Shown here piece after piece: positions 3-18,582 of a stretch of 64,000 bases of DNA. Source of the DNA: Anaeromyxobacter paludicola. Lineage in GTDB: Bacteria > Myxococcota > Myxococcia > Myxococcales > Anaeromyxobacteraceae. Numbering within the stretch: position 1 is the first letter of the stretch; each line of letters begins with the position of its first letter. Both the position numbers and the translations under genes were made by a program. Location of the stretch: the NCBI RefSeq assembly GCF_023169965.1, contig NZ_AP025592.1, forward strand, positions 682,001 to 746,000. Direction: 5' to 3'. The notes below the pieces were generated by a model, which saw only the letters and a list, made by a program, of their open reading frames with translations, was not told the origin of the DNA and did no database searches.

Positions 3-479
3 CTCGCTCGGGAGCACGGGATCCGGCACGTGGTGGACGTGCGGGTGGAGGCGCGCGACGACGAGGCGGTGCTGCGCCGCTGCGGGGTGACCCTGCTCCA
101 CCTCCCCACCGAGGACCGCTGCGCCATCTCGCTCGACGTGATCGACGACGGCGTGGGCTGGGTGCGCGAGCGGCTCGGGCGGGGGGAGCGGGTCTTCATC
201 CACTGCGAGTACGGCGTGGGCCGGAGCGCGCTCCTGGCGCTCTGCGTGCTCGTCGCGGAGGGGGACGCGCCGCTGGAGGCGCTGGCGCGCGCCAAGTCGG
301 CCCGCTGGCAGGTCTCGCCCAGCCCGGAGCAGCTCCAGGCCTTCCAGGTCTGGTGCCGGCGCGAGCAGCATCGGGCGGGGGCGGCCTGGCCCATCCCGAG
401 CTTCGAGGAGCTCGCCGGGATCGCCTACAGCCACCTGCGCCGCGGCGAGGTGGGGACGGGCACGCTCCGCTCCGGCTGA
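3..479 (+). CDS. Dual-specificity/tyrosine phosphatase-like protein, 5' partial
   Basis: The reading frame is already open at the window edge (LAREHGIRHVVDVR), so the true start lies upstream. The protein has the cysteine phosphatase P-loop HCEYGVGRS at bases 201-227, matching the HCxxGxxRS signature in which Cys is the nucleophile and Arg binds phosphate. The N-terminal stretch resembles the first strand of dual-specificity phosphatases. A methionine codon at position 30 could be taken as a start, but it would remove that strand. The gene ends 15 bases before the PRTase/kinase-like fusion gene on the same strand, so the two are probably co-transcribed. The substrate (phosphoprotein, nucleotide or sugar phosphate) cannot be told from sequence. 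Confidence 0.75.
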   Translation, partial: LAREHGIRHVVDVRVEARDDEAVLRRCGVTLLHLPTEDRCAISLDVIDDGVGWVRERLGRGERVFIHCEYGVGRSALLALCVLVAEGDAPLEALARAKSARWQVSPSPEQLQAFQVWCRREQHRAGAAWPIPSFEELAGIAYSHLRRGEVGTGTLRSG

Positions 480-494
480 CGCCCGCACGAGGCG

Positions 495-2150
495 ATGCGG
501 GTCTACGGCGATCGGCTGCGGCGCGAGGCGCCGCGCGAGAAGCTCGCCCGGCTGGGCGCGCTCCTCGGCGACGCCCGCGCGGCCGGCGGGCGCGCGCGGC
601 ACGACCTCCTGCTCGACGCGCTGGTGGAGGCGGGCGAGCTCGCGCAGGGGGTGCTCGACGCGCGCTTCGCGGCGGAGGGCGCGGACGGGCGCTCGCCGGA
701 GGGAGACGCGGCGATGGCGCTCGCCGGCGGCGTGGCGCGGGCGCTCTGGAGCTCCTGGCGCTCCGGCTTCTCCCGGGTGGAGTGGCCGCCCGGAGCGCTC
801 GCGCTGGCCGTGGCGCGCGCCGGGCTGCCCGCGACCGTCGAGGTGAAGGCGCCGGAGGGCTACGCCTTCTACGCGCTCTACCCCGAGGCGTACGGCGAGG
901 CGGCGGAGGCGCTCGCCCCGGCGGGCGCGCGGCTGCGCGTCATCGGGCTGCGGAGCGTCGGCACCGGGCTCGCCGCGCTCGTCGCCGCCGCGGCGGGGGC
1001 CACGCGCGCGCCGGTGACGCTGCGGCCGGTCGGGCATCCCTTCGCGCGCCGGCTGGCGGTGTCGGCCGCCCTGGAGCGCGAGCTCGTCGGCGATCCCGAG
1101 GCGCGCTACGCCGTCGTGGACGAGGGGCCGGGGCTCTCGGGCAGCTCCTTCGCCGCGGTCGGCCGCTGGCTGGAGGCGCGGGGCGTCGCGCCGGAGCGGA
1201 TCCACCTCCTCCCCGGGCACGACGGCGAGCCGGGCGGCGTCAACCCCGAGGCCGCCGCCGCGTACCGTCGCTGGCCGAGGCGCGCGGTCTCCTTCGAGGC
1301 GCTCCACCGCGAGGCCGGCGGGATCGCGGCCTGGGCGGCCCCGCTCATCGGCCTGGCGCTCGAGCCGCCGCGGGACCTGTCGGGCGGCGCCTGGCGCGCG
1401 CTGGTGTGCGGGGCGCCGCCGTGGCCGCCGGCCGACCCGCCGCGCGAGCGGCGCAAGCTCCTCGTCCGGACGCGCGCGGGGCCGTGGCTGTTGCGCTTCG
1501 CCGGCCTGGGCCGCTCGGGCGCGGCGGCGCTGCGACGGGCCCGGGCGCTCGCCCGCGCCGGGTTCGCCGCCGAGGTGGCCGGGCTCGCGCGCGGGTTCCT
1601 GGTGCAGCGCTGGGTGGAGGCGCGGCCGCTCCCCCAGGCGGCGGTCCCGCGCGCCGCGCTCCTCGCCCGGGTGGCCGAGTACCTCGCCTTCCGCGCCGCG
1701 GCGCTGCCGGCCGGGGCGGGGGAGGGGGCCGCGCCGGGCGAGCTCCTCGAGATGGCGCGGACCAACCTCGCCGAGGGGGGCGAGGCGGCGGCGCTCCGCG
1801 CGCTCGAGGCTGCCGCCGCGCCGCTCGACGCCATCTCCGCGGGCGCGAGGCCGATCGAGGTGGACGGCAAGCTGCAACCCTGGGAGTGGCTCGTCGCCGG
1901 CGACGGCCGGCTGCTCAAGGCCGACGCCGTGGATCACTGCGCCGCGCACGACCTCGTCGGCTGCCAGGACCTGCTCTGGGACGTGGCCGGCGCCGAGGCG
2001 GAGCTGGCGCTGTCGAGAGGCGAGCTGGGCGAGCTGCTCGGCCGCCTCCGCGCCGCGGGCGCGCGGCCGGAGGCGCACCTCGCCTTCTACCGGCTCGCCT
2101 ACCGCGCCTTCCAGCTCGGCCGCGCCCGGCTCGCCGTGGGGGGACCCTGA
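495..2150 (+). CDS. Phosphoribosyltransferase-like / kinase-like fusion protein of unknown function
   Basis: This 551-residue protein appears to have two modules. Residues about 148-245 look like a type I phosphoribosyltransferase fold: a glycine loop (GLRSVGTGLAALVA) and, at about residue 207, VVDEGPGLSGSSF, which corresponds to the acidic PRPP-binding loop. The C-terminal part has an ATP-grasp or aminoglycoside-kinase flavour: LLVRTRAGPWLLRF near 330, then KADAVDHCAAHD and LLWDVAGA at about 475-500. I know of proteins with this PRTase signature but not of an assigned reaction. The preceding gene is a cysteine phosphatase, and the downstream neighbour is convergent (8-base gap). A role in nucleotide or sugar-phosphate metabolism linked to the glycan locus is only an inference. 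Confidence 0.6.
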   Translation: MRVYGDRLRREAPREKLARLGALLGDARAAGGRARHDLLLDALVEAGELAQGVLDARFAAEGADGRSPEGDAAMALAGGVARALWSSWRSGFSRVEWPPGALALAVARAGLPATVEVKAPEGYAFYALYPEAYGEAAEALAPAGARLRVIGLRSVGTGLAALVAAAAGATRAPVTLRPVGHPFARRLAVSAALERELVGDPEARYAVVDEGPGLSGSSFAAVGRWLEARGVAPERIHLLPGHDGEPGGVNPEAAAAYRRWPRRAVSFEALHREAGGIAAWAAPLIGLALEPPRDLSGGAWRALVCGAPPWPPADPPRERRKLLVRTRAGPWLLRFAGLGRSGAAALRRARALARAGFAAEVAGLARGFLVQRWVEARPLPQAAVPRAALLARVAEYLAFRAAALPAGAGEGAAPGELLEMARTNLAEGGEAAALRALEAAAAPLDAISAGARPIEVDGKLQPWEWLVAGDGRLLKADAVDHCAAHDLVGCQDLLWDVAGAEAELALSRGELGELLGRLRAAGARPEAHLAFYRLAYRAFQLGRARLAVGGP

Positions 2151-2158
2151 GCGCGGCC

Positions 2159-3043
2159 TCAGGCGTACCGGCGCGTCATCCGCGCGCAGAACTCGGCGAA
2201 GCGCTCCGGCTCGACCGGCGGGCTCGTGTGGTGCGGCCGGAGCCCGAGGTGCTCGGGCGTGAAGCAGAAGGTGACCGTGACGTCGAACGGCTCGAGCGCC
2301 TTCATCTGCCGGTCGAACCAGGCCTCCGCGCCGGGGCGGAAGCTGTCGGCCCAGGAGAGCCCGGTCCGGAGCTTGCGCACCCCGAGCTCCTGGAGCCAGC
2401 GCACGCCGGCGTCGAGCCGCGGGTCCTCGAAGTGGAACCACTGGCAGATGCCGAGCGCCGGGGCGTACTCCGGGAAGAGCCGGAGCGCGCGCTTCGGCCG
2501 CCCGTCCTCGCGGACGAGCCCCATGTAGAAGTGGCGGTAGTACGAGGAGCCCTCCGCCTCCCGGTGGCGGGTGGTGGCGGGCCAGGCGCGCGGCAGGTCG
2601 AAGAGGCTGTACCAGTGGACGCGCGGCGCCTTCCCCGCGAGCAGCTCGGCGGTGCGCCGGAGGCCGAACTCCTGCACCTCCTCGGCGCCGAAGGTGGAGA
2701 CGCCGACCTCGGAGATCCAGACCGGCAACGCCACCGCCCGCCGGGCCTCCTCGAGCCGCGCCGGCCACTCGTCGAGCTGCCAGTGGTTCCAGTCGAGCGG
2801 GAAGCCGTGGACCGCCACCGCGTCCACCGCGCCGAGCGCGCCGTGGCGGGCGAGGAGCTGGAAGAACGCCGGGTCGATGGGCGAGATGCCGCCGAGCACG
2901 CGGGTGAGCGCCGGCGCCTCCGCCCGGACCGCCTCGCCGGCGAGCCGGGCCATCCGGGCGAAGCGCGCCCAGTCGGGATCGAGGTCGCGGTCCCAGTGCG
3001 ACAGGTTGTTCGGCTCGTTCCAGAGCATCACCGCTTCGACCAT
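2159..3043 (-). CDS. Glycoside hydrolase-like TIM barrel (GH-A clan), apparently circularly permuted
   Basis: This 294-residue protein begins with VMLWNEPNN, whose E10 matches the acid/base glutamate of GH-A clan enzymes such as GH39 and GH5. E112 in VWISEVGVSTFG matches the strand-7 nucleophile. The C-terminal third (about 195-294) reads like the start of such an enzyme: ELGVRKLRTGLSW, then a strand ending FCFTPEHLG, then EFCARMTRRYA, the helix that normally precedes WNEPN. The order of barrel elements is therefore rotated. There is no signal peptide, so the protein is probably cytoplasmic. It is last in the leftward glycan unit, 10 bases after the methyltransferase. It could be a sugar-binding or transglycosylating protein; the substrate is unknown. 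Confidence 0.7.
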   Translation of the reverse strand: MVEAVMLWNEPNNLSHWDRDLDPDWARFARMARLAGEAVRAEAPALTRVLGGISPIDPAFFQLLARHGALGAVDAVAVHGFPLDWNHWQLDEWPARLEEARRAVALPVWISEVGVSTFGAEEVQEFGLRRTAELLAGKAPRVHWYSLFDLPRAWPATTRHREAEGSSYYRHFYMGLVREDGRPKRALRLFPEYAPALGICQWFHFEDPRLDAGVRWLQELGVRKLRTGLSWADSFRPGAEAWFDRQMKALEPFDVTVTFCFTPEHLGLRPHHTSPPVEPERFAEFCARMTRRYA

Positions 3044-3053
3044 GGTCGCGCGC

Positions 3054-3800
3054 TCACTCTCGGGCGGGGTAGACGGCGCCGCTCTCGGCGGGATCCCGCG
3101 GCAGGCGTCCGCAGACGTACACCTCGGTGCCGGCGATCGGCTGGGGGTCGAAGCCGGCGGAGCGGAGCATGGCCTCGACGCAGGCGCGGTTCGGGATCCA
3201 CCAGTTGGTCCCGTCCCCGCAGTAGGCCCGCTCGATGAAGTGGAGCTTCGGCCAGGCCGGGTGGTCGAAGACCTCGCGCTCCTCGAACCGGTAGTCCTCG
3301 GCGACGGGGATCCGGCCCTGGCTGCCCCGGATCATGCTCTGGAAGACGAGCAGCTCGCCCACCGCGTGCGCGTGGAGCAGGTCGAGCGCGAGCAGCGGGT
3401 GGCGCAGGTGGTAGAGCACGCCCATGAAGAGCACCACGTCGAAGCGCCCGCCCAGCCGCGCCAGGTCGTAGACCGATCGGTTCTCGAACTCGACGTCGAG
3501 GCCGGAGACCTCGGCCGCGAGCCGGGCCTGCGCCAGGTAGCGCTCGTCGTGGTCCACGCCGACCACCCGCGCCGCCCCCCGCTTCTTCATCTCGAGCGAG
3601 AAGAAGCCCGCGTTGCAGCCGACGTCGAGCACGGTCTTGCCGCGCAGGTCGGCCGGGACGGAGCCCTGGATGCTCTCCCAGACCGCCCGCGGGTAGTCCC
3701 CGAGGAAGTGGTCCGGCGCGGTGGCCACGCCGCCGAGGTCGAGGTTGTGGAACCACTCGCCGAGCGCGCGCACCCGCGCCTCGATCTGCCCCCGCTCCAT
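3054..3800 (-). CDS. SAM-dependent methyltransferase, CmoB-like / TIGR04290-like
   Basis: This 248-residue class I methyltransferase has motif I VLDVGCNAGFFS at residues 57-68, an acidic residue in VVGVDHDERY for the SAM ribose, and motif IV region FDVVLFMGVLYHL. The N-terminus (WFHNLDLGG, then FLGDYPRAVWESI) and the phrase TNWWIPNRACVEAMLRSAGF resemble the CmoB-like family that NCBI models call TIGR04290. I recall that family next to glycan genes, but this is from memory. It lies between the ABC exporter (50 bases upstream) and the permuted glycosidase (10 bases downstream). A sugar or lipid-linked glycan acceptor is more likely than tRNA given the context; this is inference. Confidence 0.75.
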   Translation of the reverse strand: MERGQIEARVRALGEWFHNLDLGGVATAPDHFLGDYPRAVWESIQGSVPADLRGKTVLDVGCNAGFFSLEMKKRGAARVVGVDHDERYLAQARLAAEVSGLDVEFENRSVYDLARLGGRFDVVLFMGVLYHLRHPLLALDLLHAHAVGELLVFQSMIRGSQGRIPVAEDYRFEEREVFDHPAWPKLHFIERAYCGDGTNWWIPNRACVEAMLRSAGFDPQPIAGTEVYVCGRLPRDPAESGAVYPARE

Positions 3801-3850: not shown

Positions 3851-5659
3851 CTATTCACCGGCGGCCCGCCGGGAGCCCTGCGCGGGGGCGGGCCGCGGCA
3901 GCGCGCGCACCAGGCCGCGGGTCTGGCGCGAGACGAGCGAGGCGTAGTACCCGCCGTGGGACATGAGCTCGGCGTGCGAGCCCTGCTCGACGATCCGTCC
4001 CTTCCGGAGCACCAGGATCCGGTCGGCGTTCACCACCGTGGAGAGCCGGTGGGCGATGGCGAAGGTGGTCCGCCCCGCCATGACGCGATCGAGCGCCTCC
4101 TGGACCAGCGCCTCGGACTCGGCGTCGAGCGCGCTCGTCGGCTCGTCCAGGACCAGGATCGCCGGGTCCTTGAGCAGGGCCCGCGCGATGGCGATCCGCT
4201 GCCGCTCCCCGGCCGAGAGCCGGGAGCCGCGCTCGCCGACGACGGTCCGGTAGCCGTTCGGGAGCCTCTCGACGAACTCGTGCGCGTGGGCGGCGCGCGC
4301 CGCGGCCTCGATCTCGGCGTCGGTCGCCTGCGGACGGCCGTAGGCGATGTTGTCGCGGACGCTCTCGTTGAAGAGCAGCGAGTCCTGCAGCACCACGCCG
4401 ATCTGCCCGCGCACCGAGCGCTGCTTCAGCCCCTTGAGGTCGCGGCCGTCCACCAGGATGCGGCCGGCGGAGGGGTCGTAGAAGCGCTGCAGGAGCGTGA
4501 TGAGGGTGGTCTTGCCGGCGCCCGACGGGCCCACCAGCGCCACCGCCTCGCCGGGGCGGACGTGCAGGTCGATCCCGCGCAGCAGCTCGTGCCCGCCGGG
4601 GAAGGCGAAGTGGACGTCCTCGAAGCGCACCTCGCCCCGGAGCGGCCCCGGCTCGGCGGCGTCGGCCCCGTCCTCGACGTGGTCCTCGGCGTCGAGGATG
4701 GCGAAGACCTGCTCCAGCGACACGCGCGCGGTCTGGAGCGTCTTGTAGAGCCCCGAGAGCCCCTGCACCGGCCCGAAGAGGCCGGACAGGTAGCCGAGCA
4801 CCGCGACCACGGTGCCGAGGGTGGCCCGGCCGGTGACGACCAGCCAGCCCCCGACGGCGATGGCGGCCACGCGGGCCGCCGCGGTGGCGAGGCTCTGGGC
4901 CGCGCCCACGCCGGCGTCGAAGGCGACGCCGCGCGAGACCACCTCGTTCGTGGAGCGGACCTGCGAGAGGAAGCGCTTCTTCTCCGATTCCTCCATGGCG
5001 AAGCTCTTCACCGTCACGATCCCGGCGAGCACCTCGTTGAGGCGGGAGTAGATGCCCACCCAGCGCTCGAGGAGCCCCCGCTCGCGGCGGGTCTGGGCCG
5101 GGGCGGCCAGGGCGGCGATGATGCCGGGGATCGGCGCGAAGGCGAGCACCACCAGCCCGACGCGCCAGTCGAGCCGGAGCAGCACCGCGGCGGAGAGGAC
5201 GAGGTAGGCGAGCGACGGCAGGGTGTTGAAGGTGAGCTCGGTGAGCGAGCCGACGAAGCCCTGGATGCCGCGCTCGAGCCGCTGCATCACCGCGCCGACC
5301 GGCTCCTGCCGGTGGAAGGAGATGGGCAGCCCGTGGAGCCGGTCCACGGTGGCCTCGGTGATGGCGAAGTGGACCTTGAGCCGGGTGTGCCAGCTGAGCC
5401 AGTTCGAGAGCGCCAGCGCCGCCTCCCGCGAGAGCGACAGGATCCCGAGGAGGCCCAGGCCGGAGACGAGGGCGCGCGCCGCGCCGGGGCCGCCGAGCGC
5501 GTCGAAGATGCGCTTCAGCACGAGCGGCTCGGCGGCGTTGAGCGCCGCGCCGAGCAGGGCGAGCCCCAGGATGGCGAGGGCCGCGCCGCGGAAGGGCCAG
5601 AGGAAGCGCATGCCGCGGCGGACGAGCCGGTAGCCGGGATCGGAGGAGGTGCCAGGCAT
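3851..5659 (-). CDS. ABC transporter, fused permease and ATPase (exporter type)
   Basis: This 602-residue half-transporter has an N-terminal membrane domain of about six helices (about 1-320) and a C-terminal ATPase. The ATPase shows Walker A GPSGAGKTT, the signature LSAGERQRIAIA, Walker B ILVLDEPTSALD and the switch histidine in FAIAHRLST. The layout is that of MsbA-like exporters for lipids, glycolipids or peptides, working as a homodimer. The start is the ATG at 5659, whose A is also the last base of the upstream glycosyltransferase stop codon (TGATG), implying translational coupling. In this locus it probably flips or exports the lipid-linked glycan; the substrate is inferred. A longer open frame upstream is only a GC-rich shadow. 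Confidence 0.9.
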   Translation of the reverse strand: MPGTSSDPGYRLVRRGMRFLWPFRGAALAILGLALLGAALNAAEPLVLKRIFDALGGPGAARALVSGLGLLGILSLSREAALALSNWLSWHTRLKVHFAITEATVDRLHGLPISFHRQEPVGAVMQRLERGIQGFVGSLTELTFNTLPSLAYLVLSAAVLLRLDWRVGLVVLAFAPIPGIIAALAAPAQTRRERGLLERWVGIYSRLNEVLAGIVTVKSFAMEESEKKRFLSQVRSTNEVVSRGVAFDAGVGAAQSLATAAARVAAIAVGGWLVVTGRATLGTVVAVLGYLSGLFGPVQGLSGLYKTLQTARVSLEQVFAILDAEDHVEDGADAAEPGPLRGEVRFEDVHFAFPGGHELLRGIDLHVRPGEAVALVGPSGAGKTTLITLLQRFYDPSAGRILVDGRDLKGLKQRSVRGQIGVVLQDSLLFNESVRDNIAYGRPQATDAEIEAAARAAHAHEFVERLPNGYRTVVGERGSRLSAGERQRIAIARALLKDPAILVLDEPTSALDAESEALVQEALDRVMAGRTTFAIAHRLSTVVNADRILVLRKGRIVEQGSHAELMSHGGYYASLVSRQTRGLVRALPRPAPAQGSRRAAGE

Positions 5660-6816
5660 CACCCGGCGGAACGCCCCCCGTCGCCTGCCTCTTCCCTGGC
5701 CGGGGGCGCGGCGGGCGGCGCGGGAGCGCTCAGCGCGGCGTGGATGGCGAGCAGCTCGTCCACGCGGTGCGCGCAGGTGTGGCGCGCGCGCACCGTGGCG
5801 AGCCCCCGGGCGGCGAGCGACGCGGCGAGCGCCTCGTCCGAGAGCACGTCCCGGAGCCGGGCCCGCATCTCCCCCCCGTCGCGGGCCACGAGGTAGTCGC
5901 CCTCGCGGAAGAGCCCCTCGGCGTCGCGCCACGGCGCCGAGACGAGCGGGATGCCGCAGGCGAGCGCCTCGAAGGGCCGGATGGTGGGGATGCCCGGCAG
6001 CGCCTCGACGTAGGGCCGGCGCGGCACGTGGACGGTCACCCGGTGGGCGGCGAAGGCCGCGGGGGCCCGCACGTTCGGCAGCCAGCCGCGGTACGCGAGC
6101 CCCGCCTCCGCCACGGCCCGCAGCCCCTGCGGCGGATAGCGGACGCCGTGCACCCGGCCCCGCAGGCCGAGCGCCCGGGCCGGCTCGAGCAGGAACTCCG
6201 AGAGCTCGGCAGTCCGCTCCTCGTCTCCCCAGTTCCCCACGAAGACGAGGTGGCCGGCCGGCGCGCCGGCGGCGAGCGGCCGGAACCGGCGCACGTCGGC
6301 CGCCTCGTGCCAGGTGAAGGCGCGCCGCGCCCACCCCCGCGCGAGGTACAGCTCGCGGATCACCTCGCCGAAGGCGAGCACGCCGTCGTAGCCCGACAGG
6401 TCGAAGCGCGACATGGCGCCGGGGTCGCTCACCGCGCGGTGGTGGGTGTCGTGGAAGAGGAGCGCGTAGCGCCCGCCACGCAGCCGGTGGGCGCCCACCC
6501 GCCGCACCAGCTCCGGCTCGTTCCACTCGTGCACCAGCACCAGGTCCGCCCCGTCGAGCGCCTCGTCGAGGTCGAGGGCCGCGAGGTCGTAGCGGCGCGC
6601 CACGCCGTCGAGCTCCGGGTAGGCCGCCCGGAAGAGGGCGAGGGGCGCCTCGCCGGCCTCGGCGAGGAGATTCGCGAGGCTCCAAGCGTCGCGCGGCTCG
6701 TAGCTGCGGACCTCCCAGCCGCGGTGGACCAGCTCCGAGAGCACGCCGCGCAGGAAGTGGGCGTTGCCGTGGTTCCAGTCGGAGAGCAGCGAGTGGCAGA
6801 AGGCTACGGCGCGCAC
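5659..6816 (-). CDS. CgeB-like glycosyltransferase (copy 1)
   Basis: This 385-residue protein starts at GTG 6816, giving VRAVAFCHSLLSDWNHGNAH, which aligns with the N-termini of the three other CgeB-like proteins of this locus. The C-terminal half has the donor-site region IRPFEALACGIPLVSAPW and ends with RHTCAHRVDEL, a tail shared with the paralogues. CgeB-family proteins are GT-B glycosyltransferases, known from spore-crust glycosylation in Bacillus. The start overlaps the end of the GT4 gene by 13 bases, and the stop shares a base with the ABC exporter start. It therefore belongs to a tightly coupled GT4-CgeB-exporter set. Donor and acceptor are unknown. Confidence 0.8.
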   Translation of the reverse strand: MRAVAFCHSLLSDWNHGNAHFLRGVLSELVHRGWEVRSYEPRDAWSLANLLAEAGEAPLALFRAAYPELDGVARRYDLAALDLDEALDGADLVLVHEWNEPELVRRVGAHRLRGGRYALLFHDTHHRAVSDPGAMSRFDLSGYDGVLAFGEVIRELYLARGWARRAFTWHEAADVRRFRPLAAGAPAGHLVFVGNWGDEERTAELSEFLLEPARALGLRGRVHGVRYPPQGLRAVAEAGLAYRGWLPNVRAPAAFAAHRVTVHVPRRPYVEALPGIPTIRPFEALACGIPLVSAPWRDAEGLFREGDYLVARDGGEMRARLRDVLSDEALAASLAARGLATVRARHTCAHRVDELLAIHAALSAPAPPAAPPAREEAGDGGRSAG

Positions 6817-7904
6817 GGCGCCTCCGCGGCCCGCGGCTCGAGCAGCTCGCGGTAGACGGCGAGGTAGCCCTCGGCCATCGCCTCGGGGGTGAAGCGGGCG
6901 GCCCGCGCCCGCGCGCGTCCCGCCAGCCGCGCCCGCAGGTCGTCGTCGGCGGCGAGCCGCCGCAGCGCGGCGCCGAGCGCCTCCGGGTCGTCCGGCGGGG
7001 CGAAGAGGGCGGAGTCCTCCCAGTTCTCGCGCAGGCTCTCGACGTCGCCGAGCACGAGGGCGCACCCGGAGAGCGCCGCCTCCAGGATCGAGAGCCCGAA
7101 CGGCTCGTAGCGCGCCGGCAGCGCGTACACGGCCGCCCGCCCGAGCCAGGTCGCGAGCTCGTCGCTCGACAGCCGGCCGAGGAGGAGCGCCCCCCCGCCC
7201 GACTCGAGGCGGCGCTCCGAGCCCGGCTCGGCGACGTCGCCGGCGAGGTACACCGGCCAGGGGAGGCGGGACGCGAGCGCGTCGAGCGCGGCGAGGTTCT
7301 TGGCCTCGTCCCAGAGCCGGCCGGCGGCGAGGACGAAGGGGCGCTTCGCCGCGGGGCGGAAGCCGCCCGCGTCCCGGCCGTTCGGCACGACGCGCGCCGG
7401 CGGGAGGGGCCCGTGGTGGCGGACGAGGGCGCGCAGCATGGCCCGGCTCGGCGCCACCACCCGGCCGGCCGCGCCGAGCCCCCGGCGGACCTCGGCCCGG
7501 TAGCGGTCGAAGGCGGCCGGCGCGGGCGCGCCGCGCACCGCCTCGAACCAGGAGAGGACGCAGGAGTGGCCCACCACGACCTTCGGCGCGGCGAAGGGGA
7601 GGGCGCCGGGCGCGTACTGGCCGAGGTGGACGACGTCGGGGCGGAGCCGCGCCTCGAGCGCGAGGAGCCACTCGCCGGCCCGCGCCACGTCGTCCCAGGG
7701 GTCGTCCATCCACTCGAGCCGGAAGGCGCTCTCGTGCAGCCCGAGCCCGCGCAGGCCCGCGAGGGCGCGCCGCTGCGAGACCGAGAGCGGGGCGCCCAGG
7801 GTGGCGAGCTCCACCTCCACGCCGCGAGCGAGGAGCGCCCGGGAGAGCTCCGCGGCGTAGGTGAAGACCCCGCCCACGGTGTCGGCGGTCAGGAGGACCC
7901 TCAT
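6804..7904 (-). CDS. Glycosyltransferase family 4
   Basis: This 366-residue GT-B enzyme opens with MRVLLTADTVGGVFTYAAEL, the typical glycine-rich N-terminal loop of GT4. It carries the donor-binding EX7E motif in ARYEPFGLSILEAALSG. VVPNGRDAGGF and LAAGRLWDEAKN are also characteristic of retaining GT4 transferases that use nucleotide sugars. The ATG at 7904 is chosen because it overlaps the upstream oxidoreductase stop by four bases (ATGA) and gives the canonical N-terminus. It overlaps the following CgeB-like gene by 13 bases. It probably adds a sugar to the growing glycan at the cytoplasmic face. The specificity cannot be read from sequence. Confidence 0.88.
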   Translation of the reverse strand: MRVLLTADTVGGVFTYAAELSRALLARGVEVELATLGAPLSVSQRRALAGLRGLGLHESAFRLEWMDDPWDDVARAGEWLLALEARLRPDVVHLGQYAPGALPFAAPKVVVGHSCVLSWFEAVRGAPAPAAFDRYRAEVRRGLGAAGRVVAPSRAMLRALVRHHGPLPPARVVPNGRDAGGFRPAAKRPFVLAAGRLWDEAKNLAALDALASRLPWPVYLAGDVAEPGSERRLESGGGALLLGRLSSDELATWLGRAAVYALPARYEPFGLSILEAALSGCALVLGDVESLRENWEDSALFAPPDDPEALGAALRRLAADDDLRARLAGRARARAARFTPEAMAEGYLAVYRELLEPRAAEAPCAP

Positions 7905-8911
7905 GCCCCGTAGATCCGGTCGAGCGCCTCGTGCACCGCCACCACCCCCTCCACCGCGGGGTCGAAGCGGGCCCCCTCGGCGAGCGCCGCGGCCCAGCCC
8001 ACCGCGGCGCGGCCGCCCCACGCGTCGGGCGGGCCGGCGAGCCGCTCGCGCGCCGTGCCGCGGAAGCGGTCCACGGTGAAGTCGAAGAAGGAGCCGCCCA
8101 CGTTCCGGAGCGCGGCGCCGCCGCCGGTGCCGTAGAACGCCGCCTCGATGACGCAGTCCTGGCCGGCGGGGAGCTTCCAGGAGCAGGCGAGCCGCACGGC
8201 CGCGCCGCCGTCGAGGGTCAGCGTGGCGGCGGCGTAGTCCTCGACCGGGCCGCTGCGCCCCCGCGCCGGCGCGCCGCCGGCGAAGAGGCGGCTCTCCACG
8301 TGACGGACGGCCGGGAAGCCGAGCGTCCAGAGCGCCAGGTCCACGAGGTGGATGGCGAGGTCCATCACGCAGCCACCGCCGGACAGGCGGGCGTCGTAGA
8401 ACCAGGGCTTGTCGGGGCCGTAGGCGTTGTGGAAGGCGAGCTCCACCGCGTAGATCCGGCCGAGCTCGCCCGCCTGCACCAGCCGCCGCAGCTCCGGGAC
8501 GCCGCGGACGAAGCGGTAGGAGAGGTCCACCCCGAGGAGCCGGTCCGCCTCCCGCGCCGCGGCCACCACCCGGGCCGCCTCGGCCGCGTCGCGGGCGAGC
8601 GGCTTCTGGCAGAACACGGCGACGCCGCGCCGCAGCGCGCGGATCGCCTGCTCGGCGTGGGCGGCGCTCGGGGTGGCCACCACCAGGCCGTCGAGCCCGG
8701 CCTCGAGGAGCGCGTCGAGATCGGGGAGCACGGCGCAGCCGCCGGCGGCCTCGGCCGCGGCGCGGGCTGCCACCTCCGCCGGATCGCTGACCGCGACCAG
8801 CTCGGCCTGCCCGCTCCGGGCGACCGCCTCCAGCCGGTTGCGCCCGATCCAGCCCACCCCCAGGAACCCGAGCCGCGGGCGGGCGCGCGGCGAGAGGACG
8901 CCGGCGGTCAC
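7901..8911 (-). CDS. Gfo/Idh/MocA family NAD(P)-dependent sugar oxidoreductase
   Basis: This 336-residue protein has a Rossmann N-terminus (RLGFLGVGWIGRNRLEAV) and the family motif around the catalytic lysine, written here FCQKPLA, with Gln in place of the usual Glu of EKP. The second active-site signature is GGGCVMDLAIHLVDLALW, keeping the conserved Asp and His. Family members oxidise or reduce sugar rings, for example UDP-sugar 3-dehydrogenation or inositol oxidation. The GTG start at 8911 overlaps the dehydrogenase stop as GTGA, and its own stop overlaps the GT4 start as ATGA, so it is translationally coupled on both sides. It probably makes a modified sugar for the glycan. Confidence 0.87.
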   Translation of the reverse strand: MTAGVLSPRARPRLGFLGVGWIGRNRLEAVARSGQAELVAVSDPAEVAARAAAEAAGGCAVLPDLDALLEAGLDGLVVATPSAAHAEQAIRALRRGVAVFCQKPLARDAAEAARVVAAAREADRLLGVDLSYRFVRGVPELRRLVQAGELGRIYAVELAFHNAYGPDKPWFYDARLSGGGCVMDLAIHLVDLALWTLGFPAVRHVESRLFAGGAPARGRSGPVEDYAAATLTLDGGAAVRLACSWKLPAGQDCVIEAAFYGTGGGAALRNVGGSFFDFTVDRFRGTARERLAGPPDAWGGRAAVGWAAALAEGARFDPAVEGVVAVHEALDRIYGA

Positions 8912-9861
8912 GGGATCACCAGGGCCTTGAGGAAGCCGTCGGGGCGGGTGCGCATCGCCTCGAAGGCGGCGTCGAGGTCGCCGAGCGCGAACCGGTGGGT
9001 GTAGAGCGGCCGGGGGTCGAGCCGGCCCTCCGCGACCGCCGCGACCGCCGCGCGCATCCCCTCGAGGTAGACCCGCGGGTCGCGCTCGTGGGCGTTCACC
9101 ACGTCGAGGCCGCGCCAGTTCCAGAGCTGCAGGTTCACCTGCCGCGGCCCGTCCTGGTGGTACCCGGCGATGACGAGCCGGCCCCGCTCCCGGGTGAGCT
9201 CGGCGGCGAGGTCGAGCGGCCACTGCGCCCCGACCGCCTCGACCGCGACGTCGCAGAGCCGGCCGCCGGTGAGCGCCTCCACCCGCTCGATCACCCGCCG
9301 GTGGTCGTCCATCGGGACGACCGCGCCGGCGCCGAAGCGGCGCCCCAGCTCGAGCGCGAAGGGTCGGCGGCCGAGCGCGATCACGCGCGCGCCCGCGAGG
9401 TGGGCCAGCCGGATCACGACCGCGCCGAGGAACCCGACCCCGACCACCGCGACCGTCTGCCCCGGCCCGATCCCGCTCCGGCGGAAGACGTTGAAGGCGC
9501 ACCCGAGCGGCTCGGCCGGCGCGGGCTCCGCGGCGAGCGCGGCCGGGAGCGGCAGCACCTCCGCCGCCGCGGCGACGTCGTACTGGGCGAGCGCGTGGCC
9601 GGAGAGGAAGGCGACCCGCTCCCCCTCGCGCACGCCGGACACCGCCGCGCCAGCCGCGTCCACCACGCCCCACGCCTCGTGGCCGGGCGCGCCGGGCGCG
9701 AACGGATAGGTGAACCAGGGCCGGCCCTCCCAGGCCGGGAGGTTCGAGCCGCAGAGCCCGCAGCCCTCCACCCGGATCCGCACCTGCCCCGGGCCGGGCT
9801 CGGGCAGGGGCCGGTCGGCGATGTCGAACCGCCCGGGGGCGGTGAGCACGGCGGCGCGCAT
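8908..9861 (-). CDS. Zinc-type medium-chain dehydrogenase (MDR family)
   Basis: This 317-residue protein has a GroES-like N-terminal domain with catalytic zinc ligand candidates in GCGLCGSN and PGHEAWGVV, and a Rossmann domain with VAVVGVGFLGAVVIRLA. The four-cysteine structural zinc loop of classical alcohol dehydrogenases is absent, and the protein is shorter than the usual 340-380 residues, as in threonine- or sorbitol-dehydrogenase-like subgroups. It lies 34 bases after the epimerase gene and overlaps the Gfo/Idh gene by GTGA. A paired role with that oxidoreductase in a two-step sugar modification is plausible. The substrate is not identifiable. Confidence 0.85.
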   Translation of the reverse strand: MRAAVLTAPGRFDIADRPLPEPGPGQVRIRVEGCGLCGSNLPAWEGRPWFTYPFAPGAPGHEAWGVVDAAGAAVSGVREGERVAFLSGHALAQYDVAAAAEVLPLPAALAAEPAPAEPLGCAFNVFRRSGIGPGQTVAVVGVGFLGAVVIRLAHLAGARVIALGRRPFALELGRRFGAGAVVPMDDHRRVIERVEALTGGRLCDVAVEAVGAQWPLDLAAELTRERGRLVIAGYHQDGPRQVNLQLWNWRGLDVVNAHERDPRVYLEGMRAAVAAVAEGRLDPRPLYTHRFALGDLDAAFEAMRTRPDGFLKALVIP

Positions 9862-9895: not shown

Positions 9896-10984
9896 TCAGA
9901 CCCGGGCGCCGAGCCCCTCGAGCCCGGCGGCGGGCGCCCGCGCGGCGGCGCGCCCGGAGGCGGTGAGCCAACCGTGCAGGCGCGCCACGCCCTCGGCCAC
10001 TCCCACGCGGGGTCGCCACCCGGTGGCGGCGGAGAGGCGGGAGGTGTCGGAGACGTACCAGCGCTGGTCGGCGGCCCGCCAGGCGTCGAAGCGCAGCGCG
10101 GGGCGCTCTCCCTCGAGCCGCGCGATGAGCTCCATGAGCTCGAGCAGGCTCACCGTGTTCGCCGGGCCGCCGCCGACGTTGAAGGCCCGCCCGGCCAGCG
10201 CGCCGATGCGGGCCCGGGTCGCCAGGAAGGCCTCCACGAGGTCCTCCACGAAGAGCACGTCGCGGACCTGCTTGCCGTCGCCGTAGATGGTGATGGGCTC
10301 CCCGCGCAGCGCCGCCCGCAGCATGTGCGCCACCCAGCCCTGGTCCTCGTTCCCGTGCTGGTGCGGCCCGTAGATGCAGCTCATGCGGAAGACCGCCAGG
10401 GGCAGCCGGAAGGTGCGGGCCCAGTCGAGCACGTACTGGTCGGCGGCGCCCTTGGAGCAGCCGTAGGGGCTGTGGAAGGCGAGCGGACGTCCCTCGCCGA
10501 CGCCCTGGCCGTAGAGGTCGGGGCGCGCCGGCTCGTAGCGCGAGGCGCGAGCCCGGACCGCGAGGTCCTCGAGCGCCCCGTACACCTTGTTCGTGGACGT
10601 GAAGATCATGGCCGGCGGGTCGGGCTCGGCGCGGATCGCCTCGAGGACGTTGAGCGTGCCCCGGGCGTTCACCGCGAAGTCGTGCAGCGGGGCGGTGAGG
10701 CTCGTCGTGACGGCCACCTGGGCGGCGAAGTGGAAGACCGACCCGGCGCCGCGGACCGCGCGCGCCACCGCCCGCCGGCTGCGCACGTCGGCCACCTCCA
10801 CCTCGAGCCGGTCGGGGTGGCGGCGGGACAGCCAGCGCAGGTTCTCCTCCACCCCGGGCCGCGAGAGGTCGTCGAGGATCCTCACCCGCTCGCCCGCCGA
10901 GAGGAGCCGCTCCGCGAGGTTGGTGCCGATGAACCCCGCGCCGCCGGTGACGAGGACCGGCCTGCCGCCGCCGCGCGCCCTCAT
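9896..10984 (-). CDS. NAD-dependent nucleotide-sugar epimerase/dehydratase (extended SDR)
   Basis: This 362-residue extended SDR has the NAD loop VTGGAGFIGTNLAERLL, the active-site pair YGCSK (YxxxK) preceded by FTSTNKVYG, and the substrate region FRMSCIYGPHQHGNEDQGW. The phrase with STNKVYG and the IYGPHQHGNEDQGW segment resembles CDP-paratose/tyvelose 2-epimerase-like members. The ATG at 10984 overlaps the upstream epimerase stop by ATGA and supplies the standard short N-terminus. It probably epimerises or dehydrates an NDP-sugar for the glycan. It is paired with the second SDR directly upstream. Confidence 0.87.
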   Translation of the reverse strand: MRARGGGRPVLVTGGAGFIGTNLAERLLSAGERVRILDDLSRPGVEENLRWLSRRHPDRLEVEVADVRSRRAVARAVRGAGSVFHFAAQVAVTTSLTAPLHDFAVNARGTLNVLEAIRAEPDPPAMIFTSTNKVYGALEDLAVRARASRYEPARPDLYGQGVGEGRPLAFHSPYGCSKGAADQYVLDWARTFRLPLAVFRMSCIYGPHQHGNEDQGWVAHMLRAALRGEPITIYGDGKQVRDVLFVEDLVEAFLATRARIGALAGRAFNVGGGPANTVSLLELMELIARLEGERPALRFDAWRAADQRWYVSDTSRLSAATGWRPRVGVAEGVARLHGWLTASGRAAARAPAAGLEGLGARV

Positions 10985-12102
10985 ACCTGGAGCCCCAGCG
11001 CCGCGAGCTCGCGCTGCGCCTCGTGCACCCGGTCGTGCGCCACCTGCCCCTCGAGCCAGCCCGCGAGCGCCGCGAGCCCGTCGTCGAAGTCCACCCGCGG
11101 CGCGTACCCGAGCAGCCGGCGCGCCAGCCCGATGTCGGCGAAGCAGTGGCGGATGTCGCCCATGCGGTACTTCCCGACCACCTCCGGCTCGAGCGCCTCC
11201 CGGTCGAGCGCGCGGGCGAGGCGCGCGGCCACATCGAGCACGGTGTAGCTCCGCCCGCTCCCCACGTTCACCGCCTGGCCGTCGGCCGCCGGGCTCTCGA
11301 GGGCGAGGCGGCAGGCGCGGGCGACGTCCTCCACCGCCACGAAGTCGCGCCGCTGGCGGCCGTCCTCGTTCACGAGCGGCCGCCGCCGGTTGAGGAGGCG
11401 CGCGGCGAAGATCGCGAGCACGCCGGTGTACGGGTTCGAGAGCGCCTGCCGCGCGCCGTACACGTTGAAGAAGCGCAGCGCCACGGTCGGGATGCCGTAG
11501 GCGCGGCCGAGGGTCAGGCAGAGCCGCTCCTGGTCGAACTTCGAGAGCGCGTACACGCTCGGGAGCGAGGGCGCCTTGCCCTCGGGCGTCGGCACGGGCG
11601 CGAGGGGCTCGCCGTCCGGGCCCCGCACCTCCCAGTCGCGCGCCTGCAGCTGCGAGAGGCTCCGCTCGGCGCCGGGGCGCACCTGCCCGTCGGCCGCCCG
11701 GTAGAGCCCCTCGCCGTAGATGCTCATGCTCGAGGCGACGAGGAGCTTCGCCACCGGCCGCTCGATGAGCGCCTCGAGGAGGACCGCCGTCCCGAGGCCG
11801 TTCACCGAGGTGTAGTGGGCCACCTGGTACATGCTCTGGCCCACGCCCACGGCGGCGGCGAGGTGCACCACCGCGTCCACGCCCTGCAGCGCCCGCCGCA
11901 CCGCGGCCGGATCGCGCACGTCGCCGACCTGCAGCTCCACCTCGGGGGCGAGCCACGGCGGGCGGGCGGGGTCCTCGCCGTGCACCTGCGGGCTGAGCGC
12001 GTCGAGCGCCCGCACCGCGTAGCCGCGAGCGAGGAGGTGATCGGCCAGGTGGGATCCGATGAAGCCCGCACCGCCGGTGATGAGTACCCTGCGCCCTCCC
12101 AT
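10981..12102 (-). CDS. NAD-dependent nucleotide-sugar 4-epimerase-like protein (extended SDR)
   Basis: This 373-residue SDR has the NAD loop ITGGAGFIGSHLADHLL, the catalytic YALSK preceded by VASSMSIYGEG, and LRFFNVYGARQALSNPY. These fit dTDP-L-rhamnose or UDP-sugar 4-epimerases. An inserted segment around residues 135-180 separates the serine strand from the tyrosine. The ATG at 12102 is the first gene of the leftward unit, and the next 130 bases form the divergent control region. Four of the next six genes overlap it or each other by ATGA or GTGA. It probably supplies an epimerised sugar nucleotide. Confidence 0.87.
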   Translation of the reverse strand: MGGRRVLITGGAGFIGSHLADHLLARGYAVRALDALSPQVHGEDPARPPWLAPEVELQVGDVRDPAAVRRALQGVDAVVHLAAAVGVGQSMYQVAHYTSVNGLGTAVLLEALIERPVAKLLVASSMSIYGEGLYRAADGQVRPGAERSLSQLQARDWEVRGPDGEPLAPVPTPEGKAPSLPSVYALSKFDQERLCLTLGRAYGIPTVALRFFNVYGARQALSNPYTGVLAIFAARLLNRRRPLVNEDGRQRRDFVAVEDVARACRLALESPAADGQAVNVGSGRSYTVLDVAARLARALDREALEPEVVGKYRMGDIRHCFADIGLARRLLGYAPRVDFDDGLAALAGWLEGQVAHDRVHEAQRELAALGLQV

Positions 12103-12232
12103 GTGCCCCCCTGGAAAAGAAGCTGAGGATCGCCCCCTTGCACTGCAACGCGGGGTGGAGCCCGGGGGCGACGTTCATTCCCGGTGGGGTGATGCACGGG
12201 CGAGCGGAGAGGCTCATGGTTCGTGCACCTCC
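12103..12232. promoter_or_regulatory. Divergent control region of the glycan locus with an 11-base palindrome
   Basis: These 130 bases separate the two divergent transcription units. They contain TTGCACTGCAA at 12138-12148, two perfect 5-base arms around one base, placed centrally where an operator for both directions would sit. No good -35/-10 pair is visible on either strand, so the promoters may be of a non-consensus type. The regulator is unknown. Confidence 0.4.
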
Positions 12233-13318
12233 ATGCGGATCGCCTTCTTCGGATCGAGCCTGGTCTCGGCGTACTGGAACGGCGCGGCGACCTACTACCG
12301 CGGCGTGCTGCGAGCGCTCGCCGGCCGAGGGCACGAGGTCACCTTCTACGAGCCGGACGCCTACGAGCGGCAGGCCCACCGCGACATCCCCGACCCGCCG
12401 TGGGCGCGTGTGGTGATCTACCAGCCGCGCGAGCCCGACGCGCTCCGCTGCCTCGAGGAGGCCGCGCGGGCCGATCTCGTGGTGAAGGCCAGCGGCGTCG
12501 GGGTGCTCGACGCGCTCCTGGAGCGGGAAGCGCTGCGGCTCAGGCGCGCCGGGGGCCTGGTGGCGTTCTGGGACGTGGACGCGCCGGCCACGCTCGAGCG
12601 CCTGCGGGCCGACGCGGACGATCCGTTCCGGCCGCTCGTCCCCCGCTACGACCTGGTGTTCACCTACGGCGGGGGTCCCCCGGTGGTGGAGGCCTACCTC
12701 GGGCTGGGCGCGCGCCGCTGCGTGCCCATCTACAACGCGCTCGATCCCGACACCCACCACCCGGCGCCGGCCGAGCCCCGCTTCGCCGCGGACCTGAGCT
12801 TCCTCGGGAACCGGCTGCCCGACCGGGAGGCCCGCGTCCGCGAGTTCTTCCTGCGCGCCGCGGCGGCGCTCCCCGGGCGCCGCTTCCTGCTCGGCGGGGC
12901 AGGCTGGGGCGACCTCGCGCTCCCGGCCAACGTGCGCTGGCTCGGCCACGTCTACACGCGCGAGCACAACGCGCTCAACTGCTCCGCGCTCGCCGTGCTC
13001 AACGTGAGCCGCGAGAGCATGGCGCGCTTCGGCCACTCCCCGGCGACGCGGGTCTTCGAGGCGGCGGGCGCGGGCGCCTGCCTCGTCTCCGACGCCTGGG
13101 TCGGGATGGAGCGGTTCCTCGAGCCGGGCCGGGAGGTGCTGCTCGCGGAGAGCGGCGCGGAGGTGGCAGAGGCGCTGGGCGGGCTCACGCCCGCGCGGGC
13201 GGCGGCGATCGGCGCGGCGGCCCGCCGGCGCGTGCTGGCCGAGCACACCTACGCCCACCGCGCGCTCGAGGTGGAGGCGGCGCTCGGCCTGCGGCCCGGG
13301 GCGGGGGCGGCGGCGTGA
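12233..13318 (+). CDS. CgeB-like glycosyltransferase (copy 2)
   Basis: This 361-residue protein starts MRIAFFGSSLVSAYWNGAA and continues TYYRGVLRALAGRGHEVTFYEPD, the N-terminal pattern shared by all four CgeB-like proteins here. The C-terminal nucleotide-sugar region is RVFEAAGAGACLVSDAW, and the tail is RRRVLAEHTYAHRALE. The family is GT-B fold, and the enzyme probably acts in the cytoplasm. It is the first gene of the rightward unit, and its stop overlaps the next gene start as GTGA. The ATG at 12233 gives the family N-terminus; no strong ribosome binding site is visible just upstream. The sugar specificity is unknown. Confidence 0.8.
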   Translation: MRIAFFGSSLVSAYWNGAATYYRGVLRALAGRGHEVTFYEPDAYERQAHRDIPDPPWARVVIYQPREPDALRCLEEAARADLVVKASGVGVLDALLEREALRLRRAGGLVAFWDVDAPATLERLRADADDPFRPLVPRYDLVFTYGGGPPVVEAYLGLGARRCVPIYNALDPDTHHPAPAEPRFAADLSFLGNRLPDREARVREFFLRAAAALPGRRFLLGGAGWGDLALPANVRWLGHVYTREHNALNCSALAVLNVSRESMARFGHSPATRVFEAAGAGACLVSDAWVGMERFLEPGREVLLAESGAEVAEALGGLTPARAAAIGAAARRRVLAEHTYAHRALEVEAALGLRPGAGAAA

Positions 13319-14372
13319 GCGCACCCCTCGACATCGTCTTCCTCGGCCTCTCGATCACCTCGTCGTGGGGGAACGGCCACGCCGTCACCTACCGCGGGCT
13401 CGTGCGCGAGCTCTGCCGCGCCGGTCACCGGGTGCTCTTCCTCGAGCGCGACGTCCCCTGGTACGCCGAGAACCGCGATCTGCCGGCGCCGCCCTTCGGC
13501 CGGACCGCCCTGTACCGGAGCCTGGACGAGCTCCGCGGGCGCTTCGCGGAGCAGGTCCGGGAGGCCGACCTGGTGGTGGTCGGGAGCTACGTCCCCGACG
13601 GCGTGGCGGTGGGGGAGTGGGCCCTCTCCGCCGCCCGCGGGCGGACGGCGTTCTACGACATCGACACCCCGGTGACGCTCGCCAACGTCCGGCGCGGCGA
13701 GTGCGGCTACCTCACGGCGGCGCAGGTGCCGCGCTACGATCTCTACCTCTCCTTCACCGGCGGCCCGCTCCTGGAGCGGATCGAGCGCGAGCTCGGCGCG
13801 CGGCGCGCCCGCCCGCTCTACTGCAGCTGCGACCCCGAGGAGCATCGCCCGGCGGAGGTGCCCCTCCGGTGGGATCTCGGCTATCTCGGGACCTACAGCG
13901 CCGACCGGCAGCCGGCGCTCGAGGCGCTGCTGGTCGAGCCGGCCCGGCGCTGGCCCGCGGGGCGCTTCGCGGTGGTGGGCCCGATGTTCCCGCCCGGGCT
14001 CCGCTGGCCCGCCAACGTGGACCGGAGCGCCCACCTCTCGCCGCGCGAGCACCGCGGGTTCTACGGCGCGCAGCGCTTCACGCTCAACGTCACCCGCGCC
14101 GACATGGTGCAGGCGGGCTGGTCGCCGAGCGTGCGGCTCTTCGAGGCCGCCGCCTGCGGGACGCCGGTGGTGAGCGATCGGTGGCCCGGGATCGAGGACT
14201 TCTTCCGGCCCGGGGAGGAGCTCCTCCTGGCGCGGTCGTCCGAGGAGGCGCTCGCCATCGTGCGCGACACGCCGGAGGCGGCGCGGCGCCGCATCGGCGC
14301 GGCGGCGCGGCGGCGCGTGCTCGCCGAGCACACGGCGGCGCACCGGGCGCGCGCCCTGGAGGGCTACCTGTC

Positions 14373-14376
<4 letters not shown>
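13315..14376 (+). CDS. CgeB-like glycosyltransferase (copy 3)
   Basis: This 353-residue protein starts at GTG 13315 (overlapping the previous stop as GTGA) with LDIVFLGLSITSSWGNGHA, nearly the same N-terminus as the copy at 16484-17596. Other shared segments are FYDIDTPVTLANVR, LGYLGTYSADRQPALEALL and LFEAAACGTPVVSDRWPG, with the tail RRRVLAEHTAAHRARALE. These are the marks of CgeB-like GT-B transferases. Its stop overlaps the ugd start by GTGA, so the three rightward genes form one coupled unit. Its close similarity to the 16484 copy suggests local duplication with divergence. Confidence 0.82.
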
Positions 14377-15705: not shown

Positions 15706-16473
15706 TCAGGGCGCGAGCGGCGCCCCGGCCTCGGCGTCCGCCGCCGCCACCGCGGCGCGCCGGCGCAGGATCAGGATCGCCTCGTGGTACCCGTGCAGCG
15801 TCCCGGTGTCCACGTACGCCTCCCCGGCGCGCACCGCCCGCGCCGCGCCGCCGCGCGCCAGCCAGGCGTTCACGAGCGTTCCCACGTACTCGTCGCGCCG
15901 GTCGCGCTCGAGCCAGAGCCGGTGCAGCGCCCGCAGGATCGCGCCCGTGAGCCGGAACGCGCCCCACACCCAGCGCGTCCGCGGCGCCGGGTGCTTCACC
16001 TGGATCTGCCGCACCTCGCCCTCCGGCGTGGCGTCCACCGCGTCGAAGAGCTCGGGCCGGTCCACCGGGAAGCAGAGGAAGGAGAGGCCCGGGCCGAGCC
16101 GCGCCAGCCCGTCCTCCGGGAACCAGACCGTGTCGGGGAGCCCCACCAGCACCGGCTCCTCCGGCGCGACCAGCGGCAGGGCGCGGAAGAGCGCGTCGCA
16201 GAGCCCGAGCGGCCGGGGCTGCACCGCGTAGCAGATCGCGGCGGCGCCGACCGCGCCCCCGAAGTACTCCACGATGTCGCTCTTGCCGGGGGAGATGACG
16301 AAGCAGAGCTTGTCGGCGCCGGCCCGCAGCATGCGCTCGACGAGGTACTCGCTCACCGCGCGCGGGCGCTCGGTGCCGTCCACCACCTGCGTGCCGACCG
16401 GCAGGAGCTCCTTCGAGAACGCCAGCGGCTGGATGCGGCTCCCCACGCCCGCGGCCGGGATGATCCCCCACAT
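15706..16473 (-). CDS. Sugar-1-phosphate nucleotidyltransferase
   Basis: This 255-residue protein has the nucleotidyltransferase signature IIPAAGVGSRIQPLAFSKEL, with the glycine-rich NTP loop, the conserved Arg, and the Lys before LLPV that contacts the phosphate. GLPDTVWF matches the metal-binding Asp region, and EAYVDTGTLHGYHEAI is the usual late motif of RmlA-like enzymes. The length suits RmlA or GalU-like enzymes without a C-terminal acyltransferase domain. It probably makes NDP-glucose or a related NDP-sugar. It converges on ugd (34-base gap) and lies 10 bases downstream of the fourth CgeB-like gene. Confidence 0.85.
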   Translation of the reverse strand: MWGIIPAAGVGSRIQPLAFSKELLPVGTQVVDGTERPRAVSEYLVERMLRAGADKLCFVISPGKSDIVEYFGGAVGAAAICYAVQPRPLGLCDALFRALPLVAPEEPVLVGLPDTVWFPEDGLARLGPGLSFLCFPVDRPELFDAVDATPEGEVRQIQVKHPAPRTRWVWGAFRLTGAILRALHRLWLERDRRDEYVGTLVNAWLARGGAARAVRAGEAYVDTGTLHGYHEAILILRRRAAVAAADAEAGAPLAP

Positions 16474-18539: not shown

Positions 18540-18582
18540 CCTACACTATGCTCGCTCGCCGGGGGAGGGAGGGGACGAGCGC

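Follow-up and report, generated by a model that had tools for sequence, protein, structure and literature searches.

A predicted circularly permuted glycoside hydrolase barrel of clan GH-A type and its normal-order sisters in one kind of bacterial gene cluster

Gene content of the window

The window, by which we mean the whole 64-kb stretch of Anaeromyxobacter paludicola DNA that was analysed, carries near its left end a gene for a glycoside hydrolase (GH) whose barrel elements are in rotated order, within a cluster of epimerase, dehydrogenase and glycosyltransferase genes (Table 1). No normal-order copy of the GH was found within the 64-kb window. The epimerase EpiA stands alone here and is GH-fused in other genomes, so that the fusion has been either gained or lost.

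Three further reading frames were noted. The one at 495-2150 (plus strand) encodes 551 aa that reach the cut-off of no Pfam or NCBIfam family, and has a counterpart at 43% near the permuted gene in Sinorhizobium medicae (a hypothetical protein, locus L088, 12365-14113). A dual-specificity-phosphatase-like gene at 3-479 (plus strand; best Pfam profiles Tc-R-P and PTP-SAK) is cut by the window edge, and is present in 7 of the 80 best related loci. For a 404-aa ORF at 18541-19755 (minus strand) the searches gave neither a Pfam or NCBIfam family nor, by tblastn, a counterpart in the best 80 related loci.

Table 1. Coordinates of the permuted gene, its parts and the cluster genes in the window
Feature	Coordinates	Strand	Remarks
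Circularly permuted glycoside hydrolase gene, whole	2159..3043	-	294-aa ORF; basis: PslG match, duplication, AlphaFold2 (AF2), rotation scan
Predicted acid/base E10 in WNEPN	3014..3016	-	End of beta4; aligns with PslG WNEPN, Glu165; invariant in 35 aligned homologues
Predicted nucleophile E112 in WISEVG	2708..2710	-	End of beta7; aligns with PslG WSTEWG, Glu276; invariant in 35 aligned homologues
Predicted beta4-beta8 (2-7, 47-53, 75-80, 108-113, 142-145), residues 1-194	2462..3043	-	AF2; equivalent to PslG 132-300 and fused sister 118-306
Predicted beta1-beta3 (198-200, 224-230, 254-260), residues 195-294	2162..2461	-	AF2; equivalent to PslG 21-128 and fused sister 16-115
TIGR04290-family methyltransferase	3054..3800	-	Upstream neighbour; NCBIfam 354 bits, cut-off 300; within 5 kb in 55/80 best related loci
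Glycosyltransferase of conserved cluster	5659..6801	-	
Family 4 glycosyltransferase of cluster	6804..7910	-	
Gfo/Idh/MocA-type oxidoreductase, inositol 2-dehydrogenase-like	7901..8908	-	Score below cut-off
Zinc-type alcohol dehydrogenase, scyllo-inosose 3-dehydrogenase-like	8908..9861	-	Score below cut-off
NAD-dependent epimerase EpiA, without fused GH domain	9896..10981	-	55% identical to epimerase half of R. etli fusion
Second NAD-dependent epimerase EpiB	10981..12102	-	
Glycosyltransferase GT_b of cluster	12059..13318	+	
Glycosyltransferase GT_a of cluster	13324..14376	+	
Sugar-1-phosphate nucleotidyltransferase-like gene	15706..16473	-	Present in 46/80 best related loci

Rotated order of the barrel elements

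All the motifs that an earlier note had read from the translation are present, and in the order that it gave: WNEPN at residues 8-12 (containing E10), ISEVGVSTFG (containing E112), ELGVRKLRTGLSW at residues 219-231, FCFTPEHLG at residues 259-267 and EFCARMTRRYA, which ends at residue 294. Its position for the nucleophile motif was off by one; the motif starts at residue 110. An upstream-extended ORF (open frame of 390) was ruled out by stops lying 0-4 codons 5' of the start in other loci. The Pfam profile Glyco_hydro_cc (PF11790) reaches 21 bits, at its cut-off of 21, over residues 3-148 only (profile positions 67-208 of 237), and scores the rotated sequence at 23 bits, while Pfam GH39 matches the protein neither in its native nor in its rotated form. 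A weak match of residues 137-168 to phage gateway proteins in the PDB was taken as chance.

The best match among solved structures is PslG of Pseudomonas aeruginosa (GH39, a retaining endo-beta-glucosidase; PDB 4zn2, 5bx9, 9g17); no other GH39 structure falls below E 0.7. In a phmmer search of the PDB the native sequence aligns with PslG as two swapped pieces, residues 197-293 to PslG 21-128 and residues 3-163 to PslG 132-300. When the query is duplicated head to tail, as the note had proposed, the alignment becomes one unbroken run (196-455 to PslG 21-300) that crosses the junction ARMTRRYA-VEAVMLWNEPN, and E improves to 2.7e-9 from the 1.7e-4 of the native order. The note had taken the 294 residues as one whole barrel whose ends would meet seamlessly. 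A linear full-length alignment in the usual order, which the note had set against its own reading, was not found.

The position of the break was mapped by a rotation scan, in which a 35-sequence family profile was rotated at 20 points and scored against nine normal-order fused domains (described below). The mean best-domain score is 81.9 bits in the native order and reaches its maximum of 134.6 bits at rotation 190 (134.2 at 196), dropping on either side of this peak, which corresponds to the present C-terminus joined to the N-terminus. The rotated alignment covers 286 of 293 residues.

Predicted structure

An AlphaFold2 model was made without templates from an input alignment of 35 permuted homologues (mean pLDDT 89.0, pTM 0.89). 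It has eight strands alternating with helices, which with PslG as guide are ordered beta4-5-6-7-8-1-2-3, the chain ends falling between alpha3 and beta4 (Table 1). Residues 1-194 correspond to the C-terminal part of normal-order relatives, and residues 195-294 to their N-terminal part. In the model E10 comes after beta4 and E112 stands at the end of beta7, as is typical of clan GH-A. The sole poorly modelled stretch, 155-168, lies within a strongly conserved loop after beta8.

Structural alignment to PslG covers model residues 1-194 only (rmsd 2.2 over 173 residues, 22% identity), whereas unrelated generic barrels cover 1-294 (Z about 12-13, rmsd about 3.5-4); this is as expected, because a sequential aligner here meets a permutant. 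Foldseek gave no PDB match at E < 0.001, as may happen when a sequential aligner is used with a permutant. Closure of the barrel is suggested by the predicted secondary structure, the pTM and the full-length barrel matches. In the predicted fold the old termini are joined, new ones are made and no core element is lost; the model has eight barrel strands of which strand 4 is the first, as the note had anticipated, and does not resemble two unrelated half domains.

Distribution of the permuted form

Public genomes contain at least 582 stretches that code for a relative, and the order was checked in the best 80 of them. These 80 align across almost the full length with 67-80% identity and come from about ten phyla: Myxococcota, Acidobacteriota, Pseudomonadota, Verrucomicrobiota, Gemmatimonadota, Nitrospirota, Chloroflexota, Armatimonadota, Actinomycetota and Thermodesulfobacteriota. 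All 80 are in rotated order with the same start and the same end, so that the survey of homologues proposed earlier speaks for a true permutation, and the note was right to consider a broken or chimeric gene less likely. The start codon lies seven codons 5' of WNEPN, and in several loci an in-frame stop precedes it by 0-4 codons; the proteins stop directly behind alpha3, some of them with a short tail that varies. A second, leftover WNEPN motif was sought in the C-terminal tails of longer members and is absent, and no intermediate form (duplicated or split) was found in the genomes surveyed. One candidate for a normal-order or intermediate copy, L051, proved to be a spurious tblastn extension beyond a stop codon.

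Normal-order sisters in the same kind of cluster

Remoter matches on rhizobial plasmids, at about 33% identity, contain the same barrel in normal order, N-terminal to an NAD-dependent epimerase; examples of such fused proteins are R. etli WP_011427519.1 and Geminicoccaceae WGF90846.1. After rotation this fused domain is about 32-34% identical to the permuted protein over the whole barrel and has the same gene neighbours, but it keeps the normal order and has the epimerase on its C-terminal side, whereas the permuted protein is not fused. There are also unannotated solo genes (L247, L248, L237), about 36% identical to the permuted protein after rotation but in normal order; two, with open frames of 338 and 356 codons, are in genomes from the order of genome G200, and the third is in G1492. 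Aligned with its normal-order sisters, the rotated window protein matches over essentially the whole length, at best with about 35-38% identity, while unrotated it falls into two pieces for nearly all of them.

The permuted, fused and solo forms share their surroundings: a TIGR04290 methyltransferase, two epimerases, a zinc-type dehydrogenase, a Gfo/Idh oxidoreductase and several glycosyltransferases recur around all three, often with an inositol-phosphate synthase, a UDP-glucuronate decarboxylase, a radical SAM protein or a nucleotidyltransferase. In G1492 (locus L271) the solo gene L237 directly follows the TIGR04290 methyltransferase gene in an otherwise matching cluster, and so occupies the slot that the permuted gene has in the window. 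A TIGR04295 B12-binding radical SAM protein is encoded in fused-form clusters (L090, 8013-9305; L273, 6397-7668). Exact text searches of the open-licence literature for TIGR04290, TIGR04295 and guessed S. meliloti locus tags returned no papers.

For a tree, the permuted sequences were rotated before alignment. The permuted genes form one clade (support 100/100), with the solo normal-order genes as its sister (97/90); the fused domains group together (93/89), and outside all of these fall two remote proteins of normal order. The stem that leads to the permuted clade is long (2.03 changes per column), so that the support values overstate how surely the exact sister of this clade is known. One permutation event on that stem would be the simplest reading of these sequences.

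Loss of catalytic residues in fused sisters

In all ten genomes that have both the permuted and the fused form and in which both catalytic sites are readable, the fused domain lacks a catalytic Glu. The acid/base is replaced by Lys in G200, G1712 and G1760 and by Asp in G1313 and G1167, and the nucleophile by Ala in G213, G1573, G1609, G115 and G126. In G428 the nucleophile side alone of the fused domain is readable, and is intact. A normal-order form without a permuted gene being found occurs in 16 genomes, of which 12 keep both catalytic residues and four do not. No statistical test is attached to these counts, because genomes that are related cannot be treated as independent. Substitutions differ between separate clades, which suggests that Glu was lost at least three times in fused domains. 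The epimerase-fused domains of L142, L143, L092-L096, L216, L217, L231, L233, L234, L245 and L246, which lack a catalytic Glu, are apparent pseudoenzymes; most are from genomes that have the permuted enzyme as well.

Since a catalytic Glu is missing from the fused domain where both forms occur, the permuted copy probably took over the reaction of the epimerase-fused normal-order enzyme. Such replacement is not the whole story in G127, G139, G112 and G1618, which have decayed fused domains and in which no permuted gene was found.

Discussion

The tools used here show directly the order, the junction, the conservation, the normal-order sisters and their cluster, and the single permuted clade. 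The explanation that we hold with considerable confidence is that the gene encodes a complete and probably active permuted hydrolase of clan GH-A type, derived once from an enzyme of the cluster and then spread. The earlier note's central claim, that the barrel was circularly permuted in nature and gained new termini before strand 4, is thereby upheld, on the strength of the continuous duplicated alignment, the scan peak at the predicted junction, the model that starts at strand 4 and the normal-order sisters.

On this explanation the protein would be a cytosolic retaining enzyme related to PslG and GH39. Its chain, as predicted, starts at beta4 with the acid/base E10, runs on over beta5-beta8, where beta7 bears the nucleophile E112, passes through the old ends into beta1-beta3 and stops after alpha3. 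The permutation would be derived, from a single event in a normal-order enzyme that the same cluster encoded beside its TIGR04290 methyltransferase, and the permuted form would then have spread widely, probably by horizontal transfer. The usual model of origin, conjectural here, is a tandem duplication of the solo gene in which a new start arose before beta4 of the first copy and a new stop after alpha3 of the second.

As to function, the catalytic residues of PslG are Glu165 and Glu276, and it is encoded within the Psl polysaccharide biosynthesis cluster (PMC11912335). The permuted protein has the same barrel elements and catalytic Glu pair, at about 22% identity over the beta4-beta8 half by structure, and both are encoded among polysaccharide or glycan biosynthesis genes; PslG differs in having the normal strand order, from which the window protein departs by a rotation of three strands, and in an extra C-terminal part that is missing from the window protein. 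By analogy with PslG we infer a cytosolic retaining beta-glycosidase or transglycosidase, which would act by double displacement to hydrolyse or transglycosylate a beta-glycosidic intermediate of the cell glycan that the cluster produces. The below-cut-off dehydrogenase similarities, together with the inositol-phosphate synthase, hint that this glycan contains inositol or a keto-sugar.

Four other readings were weighed. It is unlikely that the permuted barrel has ceased to be a hydrolase and serves as a lectin-like or scaffold protein of a glycan assembly machinery, as its place among biosynthetic genes, the lack of a signal peptide evident by eye and the decay of sister fused domains to non-catalytic forms might suggest; it is the fused sister, however, that has decayed, and E10, E112, N9, H79, Y145 and R226 of the permuted protein show no variation across 35 diverse aligned homologues. 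That the chain forms two half barrels, dependent on domain swapping or on obligate oligomerisation for their assembly, and not a permuted barrel that stands as a monomer, is very unlikely: the linker that joins the old chain ends is short (about residues 193-197), but the single-chain model is confident, with its eight strands and alternating helices, and matches TIM barrels over its full length. The wide occurrence of the permuted form might suggest that the rotated order is ancestral and that of the fused and solo sisters derived, a reading which we regard as highly improbable, with PslG and distant relatives in normal order and the permuted genes forming one clade inside the normal-order ones. 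Data from a single genome could not by themselves exclude a broken or chimeric gene (a 5'-truncated hydrolase that happened to fuse with the start of a further copy, or an error in gene calling or assembly), but the constant order, start and end across the best 80 related loci refute it, as do the invariant catalytic residues and the one compact model, and we give it next to no weight.

Few enzyme barrels have undergone circular permutation in nature. The closest precedent is that of the GH70 glucansucrases relative to GH13 (clan GH-H), a permuted hydrolase barrel opened at almost the same point: GH70 begins at alpha3 and ends after beta3 (PMC11046441). The GH70 enzymes belong to another clan, act on alpha-glucans and are extracellular and multidomain, whereas the window protein is small and single-domain, with its break after alpha3. 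No earlier permutation in clan GH-A was found in the open-licence literature searched, where the matches concern mainly GH70 and GH13, so that priority is unproven. With some reserve we lean towards the wider reading, that this is the first natural permutant of clan GH-A, arisen in one event and spread to about ten phyla, and that it took over catalysis while the fused sister decayed at least three times to a non-catalytic domain.

The rotated order may explain why such proteins are annotated merely as beta-xylosidase, glycosyl hydrolase or hypothetical protein, and the permuted gene points to a widespread, uncharacterised glycan cluster. Permuted, solo unpermuted and fused unpermuted sisters persist in one kind of cluster, some of them in the same genome, and because all three forms survive there, the origin of a permutation and what is gained by it become directly testable.
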